64,000 bases of DNA, from assembly GCA_023134145.1 (NCBI GenBank), contig JAGLUW010000018.1, positions 62,001-126,000 of the forward strand, written 5' to 3'. Under the pieces are notes generated by a model. That model saw only the letters and a list, made by a program, of their open reading frames with translations. It did no database searches and was not told the origin of the DNA. Shown piece by piece: positions 2,600 to 53,375 of the stretch. The position numbers and the translations under genes were made by a program. This DNA comes from Sulfuriflexus sp. (GTDB taxonomy: Bacteria; Pseudomonadota; Gammaproteobacteria; AKS1). How positions within the stretch are numbered: the first letter of the stretch is position 1; each line of letters begins with the position of its first letter.

Positions 2600-3256
2600 T
2601 TATAAATCGATAAGACGTGAAACAATAGATATTTTTCCCATTTCTGCATATTTATCGACCTTAAAGGTTTTACTGTTACCACCCTTAACTGAAATTCGGT
2701 AAACACCACCTAGAGGTAAAGAAAGCTTTTTATTCGCTAGGTCAATATGTCGGCCCTTAATATGATAAGAATATGTTTTGCTGCGTTGGTCCATGCGTTC
2801 GATTGTGATATCAGCATTGGCGTGCTTAACGCGAACTACTGGTGCTGTTCCATAAATAGTTAAGTCAGCTTTACCAATACCAACCTTTTTCTTAGCGCTA
2901 CCACGAAAGGCGAGTGCTCCACTGGTTGCAGCCTGTTGGCCAGACAACTTGGCGTTACCACCATCACATTCGACGTCTTCGCGTAATAATTGACCCTTGT
3001 TGACCTTACTTTGCAGCGCACCAATAGTGACGGTGCCGCCAGTAATGGTTTCACGACGGCATGAATTCATGTAGCCAATGACTAATTTTCCACCGCTGCC
3101 TAATTTAATGACTTGGCCTTCATTGACGTAGTCCATAAAAGATAATTTGCTTCCCGTGGCCTCAATATCTTCGATAATGGCAACAGGTGCTAAACCAGCA
3201 TGAGCACTAATACTGATAAGTAGTCCCATTGATGCGAGAATTGCGTTGATCTTCAT
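2600..3256 (-). CDS. FecR-domain exported protein
   Basis: Exported protein with a signal peptide (MKINAILASMGLL...SAHA) and a FecR-like beta domain (about 30-140), including the typical G-x-V-I-K-LGSGGKLVIGY stretch. The second of two in-frame ATGs (3256) is chosen because a GAGG Shine-Dalgarno lies 9 bases before it; an upstream ATG at 3271 would add MRVGK. There is no sigma-regulator partner, so this is not a classical iron-transport FecR; proteins of this kind often sit beside CHASE2 cyclases. It is the first gene of a two-gene operon with the cyclase and is divergent from the caspase gene. Function is inferred only to the level of a periplasmic sensing or scaffold domain. Confidence 0.75.
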   Translation of the reverse strand: MKINAILASMGLLISISAHAGLAPVAIIEDIEATGSKLSFMDYVNEGQVIKLGSGGKLVIGYMNSCRRETITGGTVTIGALQSKVNKGQLLREDVECDGGNAKLSGQQAATSGALAFRGSAKKKVGIGKADLTIYGTAPVVRVKHANADITIERMDQRSKTYSYHIKGRHIDLANKKLSLPLGGVYRISVKGGNSKTFKVDKYAEMGKISIVSRLIDL

Positions 3257-3277
3257 TTTTCCGACCCTCATGTTTCG

Positions 3278-3330
3278 TTCTGTTATGCCTTTGACTACCG
3301 TGTTATGGTCTTAAATTGCATTCTGTTATG
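3278..3330. promoter_or_regulatory. Three TGTTATG direct repeats in the divergent FecR/caspase promoter region
   Basis: The 168-bp gap between the FecR-domain and caspase genes holds three same-strand copies of TGTTATG starting at 3281, 3301 and 3324; two of them are part of the longer match TTCTGTTATG. Spacings of 20 and 23 bp put them on roughly the same helix face. They could be an operator for coordinated control of the divergent genes. No known regulator is recognised. Confidence 0.3.
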
Positions 3331-3424: not shown

Positions 3425-4951
3425 ATGCGCAGTTTATTATTTTTGAGTGTTTTACTCGGATTTTCAATATCGCTGGCTCAGGCTGCGATCACCCCTTATG
3501 ATCTTGAATTAGGTCGCTATCATGCGCTGATTATTTCAAATCAAGACTATAAACAGCTTTCACCATTGAAGACCCCGCATGGCGACGCGGATGCGCTTGC
3601 TACCCTATTGCGGAATGATTATGGCTTTAAAGTAACGTCTTTGCGTGACACGAATCGTGCCGGGACTTTGGATGCCCTGGATCAGTTGGTTGAGAGATTA
3701 ACGCCTAACGATAATCTGCTGATTTTTTATGCTGGACATGGCCATCTTGATCCCGCGACCGGGGAAGGTTACTGGCTACCTGTTACGGCTAGCCCGCGTC
3801 GTCGTTCTGAATGGATTTCGAATAGTGATATCACAGATACTCTACGTGCCACAGTAGCAAAACATGTACTGGTGATTTCAGATAGTTGTTTCTCAGGGAC
3901 TTTAAGCCGCAGTGCTTCAGCAGGGCTGAATGTAAGCCAGAATAAGCGCAGTTACTATGCCAAGCTAGCTAGCAGAGCTTCTCGTACTGCACTGAGTTCA
4001 GGTGGTTTAGAGCCGGTAGATGATGGCGGTAGCGATGGTCATTCGGTATTTGCAGGCGCATTGATATCCGCATTAAGACGTAATAATGAACCATTGTTGG
4101 AAGCTGAGAATCTTTATAGCCAAATTAAGCGTCCAGTGGCGCTTAATTCATCGGCAATTCAAAAGCCGCAATATTCGGATGTTCGAGCTACTGGGCATGA
4201 TGAAGGAGATTTCCTCTTTTTTAAGCGTACTGCACGCCCTGTAGTTACCCCTGTTGTATCGGTTGCTCCGGTGGCACCTGTGGCCGGTGTTGATACCAAA
4301 GCGGCATATGAATTAACTTTTTGGAATAGTATAAAAGATAGTAAGGATGCACAGGATTTTGCGGCGTATTTGGAAACCTATCCTCAAGGACAGTTTGCTG
4401 TATTGGCGAAGCTTCGCACGAGGCAATTAGCGGCAAAGCCGGAAGCGGCCATTTCTGTGGCTAAAAGAGATCCTGTAACAAGTGGGAAAAAAATAATACC
4501 AATTAATAAGGTTACCGGGCCAATTGATACATTATTGTTGGTATTGGCAACACCTGATATAGATTATTCGCCAGAATTTAATAATGTAACAGCATACTCA
4601 ACAGCTGTTGCTGACCTGATTAAGACAGTTTTAAATAAAGGTTCGATGGTTTATTTACCGTCACAAAAAATAGTGAAGCAGATTATTGCTGAAGATGAAG
4701 ACCATGATACTAGTAAGCAATTATGTCAACAATATCAGGCGAAAAGAATAATGAGCATTGAGCTTAATTTAACTAGAGAGATTGAAGAGATGGGACGTTC
4801 TGCAGATGATGTTTACGTTGGCTTATATAATTGTGAAAAGAAACGATACAAAATAAGCAAGCATCAGTTAGATTTTGCACGCGGTGAAGAGTTTACATAT
4901 GCAGAAGGAATTCGTCATAGTTTAAAGGTTTATAATCAATTGGTACGATAA
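3425..4951 (+). CDS. Secreted caspase-family (C14, metacaspase-like) peptidase
   Basis: A 508-residue protein with a cleavable signal peptide (about 1-20, ending AQA) and a caspase p20-like domain (about 30-270). The catalytic histidine sits in FYAGHGH (H105/H107 region) and the cysteine in ISDSCFSG (C155), the expected dyad. A GGSDGHSVFAGAL segment matches the caspase C-terminal strand. After a Pro/Val-rich linker (about 275-290) comes a short helical segment. A C-terminal domain (about 365-508) then carries a DVYVGLYNCEKKRY-type beta motif that I do not recognise. The start has a good GAGGG ribosome site. It is divergent from the FecR/CHASE2 cyclase operon and may be cotranscribed with the downstream kinase (62-bp gap). 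Substrates are unknown. Confidence 0.88.
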   Translation: MRSLLFLSVLLGFSISLAQAAITPYDLELGRYHALIISNQDYKQLSPLKTPHGDADALATLLRNDYGFKVTSLRDTNRAGTLDALDQLVERLTPNDNLLIFYAGHGHLDPATGEGYWLPVTASPRRRSEWISNSDITDTLRATVAKHVLVISDSCFSGTLSRSASAGLNVSQNKRSYYAKLASRASRTALSSGGLEPVDDGGSDGHSVFAGALISALRRNNEPLLEAENLYSQIKRPVALNSSAIQKPQYSDVRATGHDEGDFLFFKRTARPVVTPVVSVAPVAPVAGVDTKAAYELTFWNSIKDSKDAQDFAAYLETYPQGQFAVLAKLRTRQLAAKPEAAISVAKRDPVTSGKKIIPINKVTGPIDTLLLVLATPDIDYSPEFNNVTAYSTAVADLIKTVLNKGSMVYLPSQKIVKQIIAEDEDHDTSKQLCQQYQAKRIMSIELNLTREIEEMGRSADDVYVGLYNCEKKRYKISKHQLDFARGEEFTYAEGIRHSLKVYNQLVR

Positions 4952-18484: not shown

Positions 18485-18985
18485 ATGAACAATGGATCAA
18501 TTACTATCGCTGGCTTATTAGCAACCATGCCGCAAGTCGGACGGCTTGACTGGATTGGTATCCGCGAGGTTAAGCGTGAGCCATTAACTGTTCTTGAGCA
18601 GGTTGAGGTAATTGAAAATAGAGGTCTGGTGGGTGATCATCGAACACAACGTGAAGACGGTAAACGCCAGGTGACAATCATTCAGGCTGAACATTTTCCC
18701 GTGTTAGAAGCGATTACGGGTCACGATGTTATACCGCCTGAATGGTTGCGCAGGAATCTGGTTGTATCTGGAATTAATCTTTATGCATTGCGAAAAGCAC
18801 GTTTTATGATTGGCGATGTCTTGCTGCAGGGCAGCGGAAACTGTCCTCCTTGTTCGCGTATGGAAAAAATACTCGGCCCCGGCGGCTATAACGCCATGCG
18901 TGGTCATGGTGGAATCAATGCGCAAGTCATTTGGGGTGGTGAGATTAAGATTGGTGATGCTGTTAAGTATGTAGATGAAGAATAG
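18485..18985 (+). CDS. MOSC-domain protein
   Basis: A 166-residue MOSC (MOCO sulfurase C-terminal) domain protein. Recognisable features are IENRGLVGDHR near the N-terminus, the GNCPPCSRMEKIL segment with the conserved cysteine, and the HGGINAQVIWGGEIKIGD end. MOSC proteins bind sulfur or molybdenum-cofactor-related groups, but this short stand-alone class has no established reaction. It is downstream of ggt on the same strand, and a link to sulfur or thiol metabolism is only a guess. It borders the cassette array. Confidence 0.88.
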   Translation: MNNGSITIAGLLATMPQVGRLDWIGIREVKREPLTVLEQVEVIENRGLVGDHRTQREDGKRQVTIIQAEHFPVLEAITGHDVIPPEWLRRNLVVSGINLYALRKARFMIGDVLLQGSGNCPPCSRMEKILGPGGYNAMRGHGGINAQVIWGGEIKIGDAVKYVDEE

Positions 18986-18986
18986 T

Positions 18987-19075
18987 TTAAAACACCGCCA
19001 GTAATTACCTGCCGGCTCAACAAGCGGCCTGCGGCGCGCTTGGAATTCACCGTCATCTAACTACTGACGTTATTT
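18987..19075 (-). repeat. Degenerate attC-like palindrome at the end of the cassette array
   Basis: Imperfect inverted repeat of attC size. The outer arms GCCAGTAATTA (18997-19007) and TAACTACTGAC (19058-19068) match at 9 of 11 positions when one is reverse complemented. The core CAAGCG...GCGCTTG (19021-19042) forms a second stem. Weak R''/R'-like heptamers flank it. It lies just downstream of the last minus-strand gene of the array, where a terminal attC is expected. The R'' heptamer that would match the cassette starting at 20291 is missing, so this is at best a decayed site. Confidence 0.35.
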
Positions 19076-19088
19076 AATTTATTTTCAC

Positions 19089-19448
19089 CTATTTGAATGC
19101 AAAGACAAAACCAACGAACAACATGCCTATTGCAGGTAGAAGAATTTTAAATAGGAATAAAAACCCAAACATTTTGGGATTGTCTTTTCGATAGTATCGG
19201 TTAATCCTGCCTTTTACATAGCCTCTTTCAAGATCTATTAAACCCCAAAATACTAAGGACAGCGCAATTGATAATCCGAAATACGTACCAACATATTTTT
19301 TAATAATATCACTATCGGTATTTTCGAAATACGCGGCACATGCAAATGCGGATATAAACAGTATCAATGCGGACCAATGTTTAATTGTCCATTTATCAGC
19401 CGAATAATAGTTGGTTACCGTTTTTTGAATTTTTTGTTCTTTATCCAT
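19089..19448 (-). CDS. Small three-helix membrane protein, unknown function
   Basis: A 119-residue protein. After a charged N-terminus (MDKEQKIQKT), three hydrophobic segments are visible: ALILFISAFACAAYF, a TYFGLSIALSLVFWGLI stretch, and a C-terminal FLFLFKILLPAIGMLFVGF helix, separated by a basic loop (KGRINRYYRKDN). The ATG at 19448 is used; a TTG two codons earlier is the alternative. No family is recognised. It is the last gene of the minus-strand cassette cluster, separated from the previous gene by a short repeat (19469-19490) rather than a recognisable attC, so the two may share a cassette. Confidence 0.65.
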   Translation of the reverse strand: MDKEQKIQKTVTNYYSADKWTIKHWSALILFISAFACAAYFENTDSDIIKKYVGTYFGLSIALSLVFWGLIDLERGYVKGRINRYYRKDNPKMFGFLFLFKILLPAIGMLFVGFVFAFK

Positions 19449-19468
19449 TGTCAAATCTCAGGATTCTA

Positions 19469-19490
19469 GAGTTTTTACTCTGACCCCAAA
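19469..19490. repeat. GGGGTCAGAGTA-type repeat fragment
   Basis: On the minus strand this reads GGGGTCAGAGTA followed by AAACTC, giving a GAGT...ACTC mini-hairpin. GGGGTCAGAGTA is a motif I associate with the ends of small mobile elements in proteobacteria. It lies in the 49-bp gap between two cassette genes and could mark an insertion that disrupted the original attC. Confidence 0.35.
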
Positions 19491-19497
19491 TATAATT

Positions 19498-20271
19498 TCA
19501 TGGCCAAGTTGGTGGAAATTGCCCATCTAAAGCCATCTCTAGCTGTATCTTAAAATTTGGATCATCCCACTCCAATAGTGCCATATCAGCTATTTCCTCT
19601 GCTAATTGATGCCTCTTATTCCTTATTAATAGAGCTACAAGATTAGAAACGTTGTTCGAATAATTATTATACGCAAAGCTCATTCTTTTAGCAGGCAGAT
19701 TCCTGGCCTTGGCGAATTTCAAAAATGAATGAAAGTTTTTTACATATCTGAGAAAGGCGTTATCCGGATCTATGTATCTACCGCATAGTTCGTATTTTTT
19801 AGCGCTAATTAACAAAGTTTCCGCCAAGTCATAAACCAGCTTTGCTCTATCTGTGTGATTTTTATCTAACCAAACAAATAAATTAACTGTTTTCTCATCC
19901 GCGTGTAACTTACTATTAATGGATTCGAAATCATTAAAATAATCGCGAGCGTTAACGCCATTACGTATATTTATTTCAGAATTATCCCTAGATGCCTTTA
20001 GCGCTACGAGTGCGGGTGGGTAAATAGTGCTTAAATGATGCCAGTCACTCAGTGCAAATGATAGCCGCACACCATACAACGATCTTCTATATTTCAATGC
20101 ATTATCATGGAACCAAATGTGCTTAGTTAAGCTATCTTTATAGTTTCCGGCTCTGTAATCATCTCTCGCTTCGTTAAGAATTGATCGCGGATCTGGTTCT
20201 GATGGTGGACTCCAATCAGCGTACGAAGATTCAGACACAAAGATTAATAATAGTATTATGAGTATCTTCAC
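19498..20271 (-). CDS. Exported hypothetical protein of an integron-associated family
   Basis: A 257-residue protein with a signal peptide (about 1-18, ending SYA) and a mature start DWSPPSEPDP. The rest is helical and TPR-like: EARDDYRAGNYKDSL, then HIWFHDNALKYRRSLYGVRLSFALS with conserved aromatic and basic residues, and LCGRYIDPD later. I recall similar hypothetical proteins in Vibrio, Shewanella and Xanthomonas, from memory only. It starts with GTG at 20271, preceded by AAGGA, directly after the TTAGCT end of attC at 20286-20348, as cassette genes do. Function unknown. Confidence 0.75.
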   Translation of the reverse strand: MKILIILLLIFVSESSYADWSPPSEPDPRSILNEARDDYRAGNYKDSLTKHIWFHDNALKYRRSLYGVRLSFALSDWHHLSTIYPPALVALKASRDNSEINIRNGVNARDYFNDFESINSKLHADEKTVNLFVWLDKNHTDRAKLVYDLAETLLISAKKYELCGRYIDPDNAFLRYVKNFHSFLKFAKARNLPAKRMSFAYNNYSNNVSNLVALLIRNKRHQLAEEIADMALLEWDDPNFKIQLEMALDGQFPPTWP

Positions 20272-20285
20272 TAGTTATCCTTAGC

Positions 20286-20348
20286 AGCTAACGTTTGAGC
20301 TAAGGGGCGCCGCTTTGCGGTGTCCCTGACTTGAGCGACTTGTTATGC
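20286..20348 (-). repeat. Integron attC recombination site 1
   Basis: On the minus strand: R'' GCATAAC, an imperfect palindrome with a CCGC-AAA-GCGG tip, and R' GTTAGCT, 63 bp in all. The R'' heptamer is the exact complement of GTTATGC, the R' that begins this same cassette at 20827-20833. That match is the diagnostic property of a real cassette. The stop of the gene at 20300 lies inside the site. Confidence 0.85.
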
Positions 20349-20824
20349 CTAGCAGTATCTCCAACAAGTACAACTTTATCTGTTATAAAAACATGTGGTG
20401 CTGGGTTAATATCCGAACCAGGACAGTTACTAGATATACGCCTCCCTGTTAAATCAAACCACGCACATGAACAGAGATCTAAGAAACCGCCTGTTAGAGA
20501 GACAGGATGGTTTGAATATTCTTTATTGCCTTTTATGACATGTAATAGAGCACATTTGCTATCGGGGCTTGTGGCTTCTATAAGCATAAAGTTAGGATTT
20601 CCAGATCTAAGATTATTTTTTCCATATTTTTTGATGAGTAGCTTGGTTTCTTCAACAGAACGACGAATTATGTAATATGGTCCGCCTTTTATATCAACCC
20701 CCAACATACCATGACCAAGTTTACTTAGGTCTACTTTAACTGTTTCTGCTAATAAGCTTGTACTGGAAATAACAAGCAAGATAAATATAGAAATCAGTTT
20801 AGTTTTATGCATATTATTTTTCAT
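20300..20824 (-). CDS. Exported cassette protein with degenerate Rieske-like C-terminus
   Basis: About 174 residues: signal peptide (MHKTKLISIFILLVISSTSLLA), then a mature domain. The C-terminal half (CALLHVIKG...LCSCAWFDLTGRRISSNCPG...VFITDKVVLVGD) resembles the end of Rieske iron-sulfur proteins, C-x-H ... CxCHGSxFDLxGR ... PAP ... VxVG. The histidine of the second ligand pair is replaced by alanine (CSCAW), so a normal [2Fe-2S] cluster is doubtful. The last 15 or so residues are encoded within the attC, typical of cassette ORFs. The start could be the ATG at 20830, 20824 or 20812; 20824 is used. Function unknown. Confidence 0.7.
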   Translation of the reverse strand: MKNNMHKTKLISIFILLVISSTSLLAETVKVDLSKLGHGMLGVDIKGGPYYIIRRSVEETKLLIKKYGKNNLRSGNPNFMLIEATSPDSKCALLHVIKGNKEYSNHPVSLTGGFLDLCSCAWFDLTGRRISSNCPGSDINPAPHVFITDKVVLVGDTARHNKSLKSGTPQSGAP

Positions 20825-20826
20825 GG

Positions 20827-20890
20827 GCATAACGTTTAAGTTAACGGGCGCGAGTCTTTTTTCGCGTCCGGGTTGAACGCCTTGTTAGCT
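20827..20890 (-). repeat. Integron attC recombination site 2
   Basis: On the minus strand: R'' AGCTAAC, inner stem CGGACGCGA / TCGCGCCCG around an A-rich tip, and R' GTTATGC, 64 bp in all. R'' AGCTAAC complements GTTAGCT, the R' at the start of its own cassette (21333-21339). The TAA stop of the gene at 20885 is part of R''. Confidence 0.88.
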
Positions 20891-21319
20891 GTTGTTTTCA
20901 TAGTTTATTTTCTTGAACTCATTTATGCCTAAATCAATTTCCTTGAAAAGAGATGCTTCATCTATTTCTTGTTTATTCTTTTTAAGCCTAGTTACAAACA
21001 GCACAATAGTTTCTCTGACTCTTGAAGCAATATAGTCTCTAATATTATTTTTAGACTTAGGTTCCCACACACTTTCTGGGATTTGAATATCAGCAGTTAT
21101 ATATCGCTGTTTTTTAGCAAACCTGAGTCTTGTTATTTCTTCTTCACCAAATTTTTGTATTGAACCGTCGACACGTATAACAGGAGCGTATTCATCAATA
21201 GCATCGCAGTATGTAGAGGTGCAGCTATTTTTTAATGCTTTATATAGATCGACCTTAATTCGACCTATGTCACCATCTTTTGGGCCTCCAGACTGTACTC
21301 CAATTGATACTATGCTCAT
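20885..21319 (-). CDS. Hypothetical cassette protein
   Basis: A 144-residue soluble protein without signal peptide or membrane helix. The N-terminal part MSIVSIGVQSGGPKDGDIGRIKV looks like a beta strand plus glycine loop; the C-terminal third is a charged helix (RLKKNKQEIDEASLFKEIDLG). It has two cysteines close together (SCTSTYC). I do not recognise the family. It starts 14 bp after attC 3 and its stop codon lies in attC 2, so it occupies an entire 506-bp cassette. Confidence 0.7.
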   Translation of the reverse strand: MSIVSIGVQSGGPKDGDIGRIKVDLYKALKNSCTSTYCDAIDEYAPVIRVDGSIQKFGEEEITRLRFAKKQRYITADIQIPESVWEPKSKNNIRDYIASRVRETIVLFVTRLKKNKQEIDEASLFKEIDLGINEFKKINYENNS

Positions 21320-21332
21320 GACTTCCTTTTAC

Positions 21333-21405
21333 AGCTAACTATAGTTATGGGGCATAAGTGCTACATAGCACGCCCGATTTTGTGTTGTTGATAGTTTGCT
21401 TAGAC
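21333..21405 (-). repeat. Integron attC recombination site 3 (boundary)
   Basis: On the minus strand: an R''-like GTCTAAGC, then AAACTAT pairing with ATAGTT, an inner stem GGGC-GTGCTA-TGTA-GCAC-TTAT-GCCC, and R' GTTAGCT, 73 bp. R' matches the R'' of attC 2, so it defines the 5' edge of the first recognisable cassette. The R'' is less regular than in the other two sites. To its right, 21406-21586 has no gene that I can support. Confidence 0.7.
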
Positions 21406-21586
21406 GCAATTTCCTTTGCTTTCATATTCTTATGCACCAATGTTCCGTATTGATTTAGGAGTGATATGTAGTAGTTCTGCTCTAAATGGGATATCACTTA
21501 TGTTTTCATTAAGTTAGCTGCATTGATACTACTACTGTGTAGTCGGTAGCGTCAAAGGGTTGCGGTCATTGCGTGCTGAAGTATTT

Positions 21587-22402
21587 CTATTTCTGACAGG
21601 CGGTACAATAGTAGGTCGCTCGTTGCCCCATTACGCAATGGCTAATTGGTTTAGCACATTTCCTGCAAGGTTCACCTTTGCGGCCATAAACATTCAGACG
21701 TTGTTGAAAGTAACCCGGTTTACCATCGCCACCGGTAAAGTCTCGCAGGGTTGTACCGCCTTGTTTAATCGCTGCTTTGATAACAGTTTTGATGGCACGG
21801 ACTAATAGCGTGTAATTTTCGAGGCTCACTTTTCCTGCGGCACGGCGAGGATGGATGCCGGCGCGAAATAAAGATTCACTGGCATAAATATTCCCAACGC
21901 CAACGACATTGTGGCTGTCCATAATGAATTGTTTAATACTGATTTTTCGTTTGCGAGCGGTTTGCCATAAATACTTGGCATTAAATTCTGTATCGAGTGG
22001 TTCGGAGCCCAGGTCTTTAAGTAGTTTGTGTTCGAAGGGTGGCTCGTTTGTCCAAAGAACACTGCCGAAACGACGCGGATCATGTAGGCGTAAACATTTT
22101 CCATTGGCGAAGACGAGATCGAAATGGTCGTGTTTGCGAGGTTCGGTGTTGCGGTCGACAACTTGCAAACTACCGGACATGCCAAGGTGCATTAATAAAT
22201 GGCCTTTTGGAAATTCGAGTAGTAAATATTTCCCACGTCGCGTTACTGACAATAATTTTTGCTTGGGAAGTGTTTTCTTAATGGCCGTAGGTATTGGCCA
22301 GCGCAATTTACCATTGCGAATAATAACCGACGTAACGGTTTGGCCTTGTATGTGTGGGCTGATGCCTACTCGGGTGGTCTCAACTTCAGGTAATTCAGGC
22401 AT
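21587..22402 (-). CDS. mutM: Formamidopyrimidine-DNA glycosylase (Fpg)
   Basis: Base-excision repair enzyme that removes 8-oxoguanine and formamidopyrimidines and then nicks the abasic site. The N-terminus is PELPEVETTR, with the catalytic proline after Met1 and the adjacent glutamate. The helix-two-turn-helix region (KQFIMDSHNVVGVGNIYASESLF) is intact, and the C-terminal zinc finger has C-x2-C (CRKC) and C-x2-C (CTAC). Length 271 is normal. It follows the DUF4340 gene by 14 bp on the same strand but is probably only a positional neighbour. Confidence 0.98.
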   Translation of the reverse strand: MPELPEVETTRVGISPHIQGQTVTSVIIRNGKLRWPIPTAIKKTLPKQKLLSVTRRGKYLLLEFPKGHLLMHLGMSGSLQVVDRNTEPRKHDHFDLVFANGKCLRLHDPRRFGSVLWTNEPPFEHKLLKDLGSEPLDTEFNAKYLWQTARKRKISIKQFIMDSHNVVGVGNIYASESLFRAGIHPRRAAGKVSLENYTLLVRAIKTVIKAAIKQGGTTLRDFTGGDGKPGYFQQRLNVYGRKGEPCRKCAKPISHCVMGQRATYYCTACQK

Positions 22403-50284: not shown

Positions 50285-52261
50285 TTAAGAAGCATCTGCC
50301 GCTTGTTGTTCGTCATTGACCGGTGGCACAAATGGACGTTTGACGACTTCAAGCATGAGATTGATAGCCGATATTTGCTGTTCGAGATCCACTAAGGTTT
50401 TCTCAAGTTCAGCGATCTTGCCTTCTAAAGTATCACGCGATTGACTAATTTTACGCAGTGTCAGTAGGCGTTTTTCGATATCGAGTTTGTGTTCTTTAAT
50501 CTGGGCCTTGAGAGGGCTAATGACTTCTTTTGCCCAACGGTTGGCCTCTTGGTTGGCATTGAAGAATATATTACGCGCCTTACTGACCATTGAAATAAAG
50601 AATTTTTTCACAACAAAGCTTTGCTCTGTCATGGTGGTGACTGGGCTCTTACGGAATAATTCAGCTTCACGGTAGAGTAAATCGAGTTCTTTTTGAAAAC
50701 GTAAGGTTGTAAATAGTTTTGGTTTAACTTCACGGAAACCATGTTCTTTATGAAATTTATGGTAAATAGCGCGGACTATCTTATGCAGCTCTAATGCTTG
50801 GTCTGAGGCGGCATCCATTGTTGTCGTCATCTCATTAAAGAAGTTTTTCATGCCGCCTTTCATGCCAGTTGTTGTCCAGCTACCTGACATGCTCTTGCGG
50901 GTATTCGCAACAACCTTATCAATAGAAACGAGGTCGAGATGACCAAGTAGCTTGCTGCTGTAGTTGTCCATAATGCGACGGCCTTTCTTCAGGCCTTCAA
51001 GATTCTTGTTATAGACAATTTGTTCATCGCGCGTCTTTTGTAACAAATGCATAATGACGTCGGCATTCTTGCCACAAAGTGATTGCAGTTCGTCGCGTTG
51101 TTTATTGGTTGAATTAATCCGATCAGCCAGTATTTGTTTGTCGGCATTGATCATGGTGCTAATTTCAGAAATGACCTTTTGACTAATAATGTGGTGTTTT
51201 TCAGGAATGACATCACAACTGAGTGCATGTTCGAGCGCACTAATACCGCTATTTGCGAGTAAAATATCATCTTTCTTTATCTTCGCTAGCAAGGCTTTCT
51301 GTGCAGAAATAGGGAAAACATTTTCAATCGGGATACATAATTCTTCAGAAGCCTTTTTACACTGTGACTGAATACTGATATCAATCGCTTCTTTAGTATG
51401 TAGTTCGTCCCAGAGGGTATCGATTTTATTCAGTACAACCAGTAAGCCTTTATTATGATTAACACGATAACCACTGATGTGGTGTTGCCACATTTCCATA
51501 TCGGATTTGGTGACGCCAGTATCGGCAGCCAGCAGGAATAATACGGCTTGTGCGTTAGGTAGCATGTTGATGGTTAATTCAGGTTCTGCACCAAGGGCAT
51601 TGAGCCCGGGCGTATCGAGTACAACCAAACCCTGTTGTAGCAGAGGGTGTGGAAAATTAATAAGTGCATGACGCCATTTCGGGATCTCAATATGGGTCGT
51701 TGGAATATCTTGAGATGATAAATGGGCAAACTCTTTTTCATCATAGAGACCGAGTTCACGAGCGCGTTCAACGGACACACGTTTGGTGCGAGTGACTTCA
51801 CTAAAGGCTTCGGAAAGCGAGTCGGCCGATTCAGGGTCGAGATGAATATTGGTCCATTCGATTTCTTCTTTTTTGTAATCGGCAATGCTGTTGTTTTCGT
51901 CAAGCCGCGTTTCAATGGGCAGCAAGCGTATGTAAGGGCGCTCGACTTCATCGTCATAAAAAATTTCAGTTGGGCACATGGTGGTGCGGCCCGCCTGCGA
52001 TGGTAATAAACGACGTTTGTATTGTGAGAAGAACAGCGTGTTAATGAGTTCGGTTTTACCGCGAGATACCTCGGCGACGAACGCAACGGTAATCTTGTCA
52101 GATTTAAGTGATTCAAGTGTTTCGTAGATGCGCAGGTCATTCTCGGCATCATTGAGATCATTGTCTTCTAGCCAACTAAGATAGGCGTTGATTTCACGGA
52201 TCAGATCGTTTTTCCATTTTGCATAGGCTTCGATCTGAAGCATTAATTCATTTTCTGGCAT
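50285..52261 (-). CDS. Bacterial dynamin-like GTPase
   Basis: A 658-residue dynamin-like protein. The G domain (about 40-330) has a P-loop EVSRGKTELIN (G1, with Ala-Glu before it instead of the usual Gly), a conserved threonine after it (G2, in AGRTTMCPTE), DTPGLNALG (G3) and LNKID (G4). The rest is helical with coiled coils, ending LAELEKTLVDLEQQ. There is no membrane helix; membrane contact would come from the helical bundle. Such proteins act in membrane remodelling or envelope stress, and some are linked to phage defence. It is alone rather than in a tandem pair. The ATG at 52261 has GGAG ten bases upstream; the frame extends to 52324. Confidence 0.82.
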   Translation of the reverse strand: MPENELMLQIEAYAKWKNDLIREINAYLSWLEDNDLNDAENDLRIYETLESLKSDKITVAFVAEVSRGKTELINTLFFSQYKRRLLPSQAGRTTMCPTEIFYDDEVERPYIRLLPIETRLDENNSIADYKKEEIEWTNIHLDPESADSLSEAFSEVTRTKRVSVERARELGLYDEKEFAHLSSQDIPTTHIEIPKWRHALINFPHPLLQQGLVVLDTPGLNALGAEPELTINMLPNAQAVLFLLAADTGVTKSDMEMWQHHISGYRVNHNKGLLVVLNKIDTLWDELHTKEAIDISIQSQCKKASEELCIPIENVFPISAQKALLAKIKKDDILLANSGISALEHALSCDVIPEKHHIISQKVISEISTMINADKQILADRINSTNKQRDELQSLCGKNADVIMHLLQKTRDEQIVYNKNLEGLKKGRRIMDNYSSKLLGHLDLVSIDKVVANTRKSMSGSWTTTGMKGGMKNFFNEMTTTMDAASDQALELHKIVRAIYHKFHKEHGFREVKPKLFTTLRFQKELDLLYREAELFRKSPVTTMTEQSFVVKKFFISMVSKARNIFFNANQEANRWAKEVISPLKAQIKEHKLDIEKRLLTLRKISQSRDTLEGKIAELEKTLVDLEQQISAINLMLEVVKRPFVPPVNDEQQAADAS

Positions 52262-52463
52262 GCTGGTACTACTCCAAAATGCGGTATTTACCGCTAAACA
52301 CTTGAATACATTATATTTTAACAATTAGGCTTGAGATGAACTCGATCACAGAGTAAATCGCAAGCGTCTATTAGTTATAGACGATTCTGATAAGAATGCA
52401 GTCTTATATAAGGTTATCGGCCCAAATTGTTGATTCTTAATGCTTCAGTATCTGAATCTGAGC

Positions 52464-52757
52464 TTAATTGGCAGGTTTTATACCGTCGAGGAGTTGGGTC
52501 GGGGAGTGGATAAGTAAGCGTTTCTGGCGGTTGTGTGCGCCACTCATAAGCTCAACTTGGCTATTTGCGACAGCAAAGCTTTTGGCGATGAATTTGCACA
52601 AAGCAATATTCGCTTTGCCATCCACCGGCGGGGCGGTGAGTCTGATTTTTAACTGATTGTCTTGTACGCCAATAATCTCATTACGACTGGCTTTGGGTTG
52701 CAAACGTACCGATAGAATGAGGTCATCACCTTGCCATTGGTAATAGCCGTCATTCAA
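52464..52757 (-). CDS. yggU: YggU (DUF167) family protein
   Basis: A 97-residue DUF167 protein. It has the RLQPKASRNEIIG and RLTAPPVDGKANIALCKFIAKSF motifs that define the family. The biochemical role is unknown. It starts 3 bp after the yggT stop and is the last gene of yggS-proC-yggT-yggU. Confidence 0.95.
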   Translation of the reverse strand: MNDGYYQWQGDDLILSVRLQPKASRNEIIGVQDNQLKIRLTAPPVDGKANIALCKFIAKSFAVANSQVELMSGAHNRQKRLLIHSPTQLLDGIKPAN

Positions 52758-52760
52758 ATC

Positions 52761-53375
52761 TTAGTAAAGCAATTTCAGCAGTGAACCAGGGAAGCCCAAG
52801 TGTATAGATAAAGCATATAAAGGCGGCATTATCAGCATGCGTGCGACAACTAAGCCTAAAATGGTCACAAATACAGATAAATCTAACATCCCCACGGGAG
52901 GCATAATTCTGCGAATAGGTCGTAATAGGGGTTCAGTTATGCTGCTCATTATTGCGGTAACAGGGTTATAGCCACCGGTCGATATCCAGCTAAGCAGGGC
53001 GACAATAACCAAGCTGAAGAAGTAGATATACATGAACAGTGAAATCAATTTGGTAAAAGTGGCCATGAGCAAGCCAGCAATACTCAGCGTCTCAAGTGCA
53101 CCACCATGCAATAGCGCCATAATGACAATTGAGGCGCATTGTAGGGAAAATAGCAGCACTAACGATGAAACATCGATGCCACCCCAGCCCGGTATAATTC
53201 GGCGCAATGGTTTGAGTGGTGGATTGGTTATTTTGACCAAAAATTGCGAAAACGGATTATAAAAATCAGCGCGAACGATCTGCAGCAACAAACGCAGCAT
53301 CACTGCCAATATGTACAAGCCGAAGAGTGTATCGATAAGAAAAATAACTGGGTTGAGTAAATAGCCGTTGCCCAT
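52761..53375 (-). CDS. yggT: YggT family membrane protein
   Basis: A 204-residue integral membrane protein with two YggT repeats; each has the PLLRPIRRIMPPVGMLDLS-like ending (NPPLKPLRRIIPGWGGIDVS and EPLLRPIRRIMPPVGMLD, abbreviated). Four hydrophobic segments. Its role is unresolved, with links to osmotic stress and cell division in other bacteria. Lies between proC and yggU. Confidence 0.94.
   Translation of the reverse strand: MGNGYLLNPVIFLIDTLFGLYILAVMLRLLLQIVRADFYNPFSQFLVKITNPPLKPLRRIIPGWGGIDVSSLVLLFSLQCASIVIMALLHGGALETLSIAGLLMATFTKLISLFMYIYFFSLVIVALLSWISTGGYNPVTAIMSSITEPLLRPIRRIMPPVGMLDLSVFVTILGLVVARMLIMPPLYALSIHLGFPGSLLKLLY

Follow-up and report, generated by a model that had tools for sequence, protein, structure and literature searches.

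An integrase-less cassette array in Sulfuriflexus is headed by its own attI and is probably one of several integron platforms that lost intI

The gene cassette array between mutM and a MOSC-domain gene in Sulfuriflexus sp. is probably an integron platform that lost its own integrase gene, one of several in the genome, with ancestral losses of intI and retention of promoter and attI. It lies in the window, that is, the whole 64-kb stretch of DNA that was analysed, and comprises a candidate promoter, a leader that contains a short ORF, attI and three cassettes, two of them intact and the third truncated (Table 1). Because attI and the candidate cassette promoter are retained, the array can be described as a platform minus only the integrase gene. 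An earlier note, made from the sequence alone, had proposed that the genes were captured as cassettes; that origin stands, but attI, the candidate promoter and the status of the locus as one of several platforms per genome had been overlooked. The whole array reads on the minus strand, an orientation that had been left unstated.

Table 1. Features of the window array and its flanks (window positions)
Feature	Position	Strand	Basis or detail
mutM (fpg), upstream flank, co-directional with array	21587..22402	-	family search
Leader + attI, type A, 220 nt	21336..21555	-	homology to C39, C27
Candidate cassette promoter Pc	21526..21555	-	TTGACG (21550-21555), 18-nt spacer, TAGTAT (21526-21531)
Short leader ORF MKAKEIASKQTINNTKSGVLCSTYAP	21345..21425	-	sequence
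attI-proximal imperfect hairpin GGGCGTGCTA...GCCC	21350..21375	-	fold
Crossover core G/TTAGCT, attI / first cassette junction	21333..21339	-	sequence
Cassette A, TTAGCT...AGCTAAC	20833..21338	-	attC 20827..20890
Cassette A 144-aa ORF	20885..21319	-	no family found
Cassette B, TTATGC...GCATAAC	20292..20832	-	attC 20286..20348
Cassette B 176-aa ORF, distant Rieske (PetA) relative	20300..20830	-	N-terminal signal-like segment
257-aa ORF	19498..20271	-	start ~15 nt past G/TTAGCT
121-aa membrane-protein-like ORF	19089..19454	-	no family
MOSC-domain gene, other flank, convergent with array	18485..18985	+	family search

The attC sites were searched with covariance model R1, which was trained on 14 sites outside the window, taken from further contigs and from other species, and whose structure was set by hand as R/L boxes. 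In the 64-kb window it scored the attC of cassette A (56.1 bits, E 7.5e-12) and that of cassette B (44.7 bits, E 5.6e-9), both on the minus strand, and no further attC at E ≤ 10, so that two of the three sites named in the earlier note, which had suggested such a search, were recovered. A strict text pattern for attC gave zero matches, two further attC scanners with strict thresholds or a demand for matching outer arms missed the window sites, and Rfam had no match to the window. Read on the minus strand, each cassette ends in an R'' complementary to its own start (G/TTAGCT...AGCTAAC, 21338 to 20833; G/TTATGC...GCATAAC, 20832 to 20292), as had been pointed out before, and the stop codons of both ORFs (at 20300 and 20885) indeed fall within attC. 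The window attC is 78% identical to an attC of contig C40, attC subtypes being common to several arrays of the genome. CALINs are defined by at least two attC sites found by covariance model and no integrase gene at the locus, and the window array is of this kind, since the ORFs of the region include no integrase gene and the genome's sole intI above cut-off lies on another contig, C39. The arrangement of a complete integron, with intI adjacent to attI, is absent from the window locus.

The segment 21333-21405 had been read as a third attC; judged by its sequence, it is the 3' end of attI rather than an attC. It was unscored at E ≤ 10 and belongs to a 220-nt alignment with the segment between intI and attI on C39, and the hairpin in Table 1 is the palindrome on which the attC reading had been based. 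The last 227 nt before the end of C39 align with the window leader-attI (65%), with a local score of 70, whereas none of 500 shuffles exceeded 16. Identity of the window copy, labelled C10, is 65.5% to C39 and 66.4% to the copy on contig C27, and the local alignment scores (70-75) compare with shuffled maxima of 16-23. Against model R2, of which it is itself a training member, it scored 159.9 bits (E 7e-47). By sequence, then, the putative attI is homologous to a site intervening between intI and the first cassette and ends in G/TTRRRY. ATAGTTA forms the end of nearly all type A copies, and the ATAGTTA at the C39 contig terminus reads as the attI crossover. Homology among C10, C27 and C39 begins at TTGACG, ~10 nt before the C39 intI start codon; upstream of TTGACG no common sequence was found between C39 and the window, where the leader starts 31 nt past the mutM stop codon.

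The candidate promoter matches the consensus at 9 of 12 positions, in a region that held 2 such sites against 1.1 expected. Other copies have TTGACG-N18-TAGAGT (C27, C39 and a copy in the complete congener, G002_2367k) or TTGACG-N18-TACAGT (G003_C203), and TTGACG-N18-TAGTAT of the window would transcribe the cassettes. The start codon of the leader ORF lies 90 nt ahead of the GTTA end; the stop codon TAG of this ORF takes the crossover G in five other copies. Substitutions at the three codon positions number 158/157/148, with neither periodicity nor third-position excess, so that a coding role of the ORF is only suggested and selection on a leader peptide was dismissed. A conserved RNA structure in the leader was also considered, but the signal was weak (-1.5 kcal/mol, one compensated pair). 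Like ORF-11 of the class 1 site attI1 (PMC8876359), the leader ORF begins before the crossover and stops there or close by, a layout that by analogy may suit translational coupling with the first cassette (PMC8876359). The leader ORF has 28 codons in five copies and a stop intrinsic to attI, whereas ORF-11, unrelated in sequence, has its stop supplied by the first cassette (PMC8876359).

The genome of the window (G000; 2.32 Mb, 40 contigs, 89% complete) contains a single intI above cut-off, on the minus strand of C39 (475.7 bits, cut-off 265). It is an open ORF of 327 aa (52110-53093) in which the IntI-specific region and the catalytic residues were recognised by eye. The description of the array as lacking an integrase therefore holds for the window locus and fails for the genome, where the proposed look elsewhere led to this intact gene. 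No intI above cut-off was found in congener G001 (99% complete), and both intI genes (a and b) of the complete congener G002 are frame-shifted at the catalytic tyrosine; a near-identical ~50-nt insertion directly precedes the tyrosine codon in the two (L085; L086 near 10951). In three species intI lies downstream of ilvD (G000 C39, L006/L007; G003 C16, L087; G002b, L086, 2.30 Mb), and on C39 a HigBA-like toxin-antitoxin pair sits between the two genes. The integrases of G000 and of an Ectothiorhodospiraceae MAG (G037) form one group, those of G003, G002a and G002b the other. Three draft assemblies break at most ~130 nt from an intI-linked attI crossover (L007 end, L087 start, L033 start), possibly as a result of first-cassette variation in the population.

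The leader-attI element recurs. Model R2, built from C10, C27, C39 and the copy at L033 of the MAG, matched these three sites in G000, two to three sites in each of the three congeners and further loci of the MAG. Full copies without intI, hereafter solo copies, number 11 (three in G002 and two each in G000 (C10 and C27), G001, G003 and G037). Downstream of each of the 11 lies attC in the same orientation, in some cases a single site with a weak score; the weak scores are those in G001, G003_C144 and G037_C19. On C27, for example, the leader-attI stands behind soxZ and is followed by cassettes, with no intI; one cassette of this array (L089:1247-2116) encodes a TIR-domain protein, possibly a defence gene. 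On C39 and in the MAG, a leader copy lies between intI and its crossover. No relative of intI was found by tblastn within 1.5 kb or less upstream of the solo copies, two loci having shorter upstream sequence. The genes upstream, identified from translations, include mutM, soxZ, trmB-like, NtrC-like, hydrolase and hsdR-like genes and others, and the solo copies mostly lie just past the 3' ends of such chromosomal genes, co-directional with them. With a further model, R3, and stricter filters, the element was detected among 369 genomes of the class in 4/4 genus members and 0/365 others. Copies from one genome group with those of other species and not with one another in a tree with several weakly supported branches, and the spread of the element looks old. 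Several copies have a nearly identical 5' boundary. Upstream of TTGACG, ~30 nt (GCAGACATTAAG...TTAGCTTTGG) are common to G000_C27, G003_C203, G002_2367k and G001_C38b, and this segment is absent from C10 and C39. Leader-only copies without the attI end were seen at two syntenic positions with different genes behind them (L116:3125-3258 on G000 C26; L111:2846-2973 on G003 C211); these are perhaps eroded platforms.

A second attI type, B, adjoins intI in G002b and G003 and consists of a GGCCTAAAAGGCC-kind hairpin, then TAATTATA or TACTTATA, then GTT. It too occurs solo, heading attC sites twice in G002 (L130:2499-2619, E 2e-12; L135:925-1032, E 9e-8), with a weaker match on contig C2 of G000 (L030:3520-3590, E 4e-4). 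The latter is embedded in a cassette array, with attC 3243-3313 on one side and attC 4014-4099 on the other, as if two arrays had fused. Since the integrases split like the attI types, some solo sites sit in genomes without the matching integrase type.

Neither the 144-aa nor the 121-aa protein received a family assignment. Matches to the 176-aa protein are PetA-type Rieske proteins (~30%), but inspection by eye showed FLDLCSCAWFDL in the place of PetA FFCPCHGSKFDL and an unconserved CTHLGC motif, which makes cluster binding unlikely; from its sequence it is probably a Rieske-fold relative unable to bind the cluster, its ligands seemingly lost. The 257-aa ORF would represent a third cassette whose attC is gone, to which the 121-aa ORF possibly belongs. 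No terminal attC was found for the genes at 19089-20271, and the R'' required by a third cassette (GTTAGCT, + strand) is absent from 18986-20285; an inverted repeat at 18986-19090 was rejected as a terminal attC for want of a properly oriented 3' GTTRRRY core. A 43-nt segment at the distal end of the array (18992-19034) is 91% identical to C19:34293-34335, has weaker copies elsewhere and, by sequence, looks like a dispersed repeat. The one relative of the 257-aa protein in a plasmid collection (38.5%) is encoded on a megaplasmid of Halomonas, in a region where no attC was found nearby, and a cassette context elsewhere was dismissed. As for the flanks, the interval between the MOSC gene and mutM contains a diguanylate-cyclase-like gene in G002, a chemotaxis-receptor-like gene follows mutM in G003, neither genome having an array there, and in G001, whose contig stops soon past mutM, the array was not seen. 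The differing site in G002 and G003, together with the absence of the 176-aa protein from all three congeners, supports cassette capture.

In the mechanism we favour, ancestral integrons at several loci would have lost intI, selection would have retained promoter and attI, and the C39 IntI, encoded beside a homologous attI at the ilvD locus, could load and excise window cassettes in trans. Loss of intI fits because the leader reaches the intI start and the copies are old; it fits less well because no intI remnant lies beside any solo copy, and the near-common 5' boundary argues against independent deletions unless the promoter sets that boundary. Passages of PMC12444791 and PMC9668308 treat CALIN cassettes as mobilisable in trans. 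Such recombination cannot be general today, since G001 has no intI above cut-off and both G002 genes are frame-shifted. The main rival is that copies of the promoter-attI module were placed at further loci unaccompanied by intI, as might happen if IntI acted on secondary sites; the lineage would then maintain several attI docking sites, all of them targets of a single integrase acting in trans. The many loci with their near-common 5' boundary and without intI remnants, the preference for positions right after gene 3' ends in the same direction, and the attC subtypes shared among arrays of the genome, as between the window and C40, all speak for it. We nevertheless consider it unlikely, as the copies are old, divergent (65%) and not grouped by genome, solo platforms persist in two species without an intact integrase, G002 and G003 hold type A solo copies without a type A IntI, and no junction was found that shows module movement. 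That the genome houses a distributed integron, in which one integrase, acting in trans on several dispersed attI-promoter platforms behind the 3' ends of chromosomal genes, would let a single cell capture and express cassettes at many positions of its chromosome simultaneously, is doubtful.

IntI insertion at secondary genomic sites, for which passages of PMC12444791 cite literature, could also have produced an ordinary CALIN at a non-attI site (attG) with an incidental resemblance to attI; the 220-nt homology to an intI-linked attI region, far above shuffles, and the recurrence of the element before other arrays contradict this reading and render it very improbable. Partial copies lacking the attI end before other genes (G000 C26, G003 C211, G001 C6) might instead point to a general promoter or 5'UTR module outside the integron, behind which arrays stand by chance or for expression. 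That is hardly credible either, given that full copies stop at the attI crossover with attC sites next, and that a copy lies between intI and the crossover on C39 and in the MAG.

In the textbook integron attI adjoins intI. CALINs are known as well and are regarded as clusters of attC sites whose origin is unclear. The window resembles a CALIN in its attC cassettes (two here) without intI at the locus, but starts with its own attI and a candidate promoter, neither of which the CALIN definition requires. An attI-headed CALIN has been published in Shewanella prophage M16-3 (PMC9892861), where, as here, it shares a replicon with a complete integron. That case is a single pair in a prophage with one common Shewanella-type attI, whereas all 4 genus members have several chromosomal platforms each, which have diverged to ~65%. 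For the sedentary chromosomal integrons of Xanthomonas, passages of PMC12444791 likewise place intI downstream of ilvD, as on C39, G003 C16 and in G002b, and CALINs at several conserved chromosomal loci; unlike here, they describe no attI at the distal CALINs. In the open-access literature, preprints excluded, we came across no description of a genome with several platforms that are headed by attI and lack an integrase, and such multiplicity appears to be new, CALINs and one attI-headed CALIN being already known.

CALIN detection based on attC and intI would miss such attI sites unless their sequence were already known. Arrays that lack an integrase but retain attI would exemplify one direct way in which CALINs arise, through the loss of intI, and the recurrence of solo attI departs from the rule that the docking site lies beside the gene of its enzyme, raising the question of whether a single integrase can load several docking sites of one chromosome.
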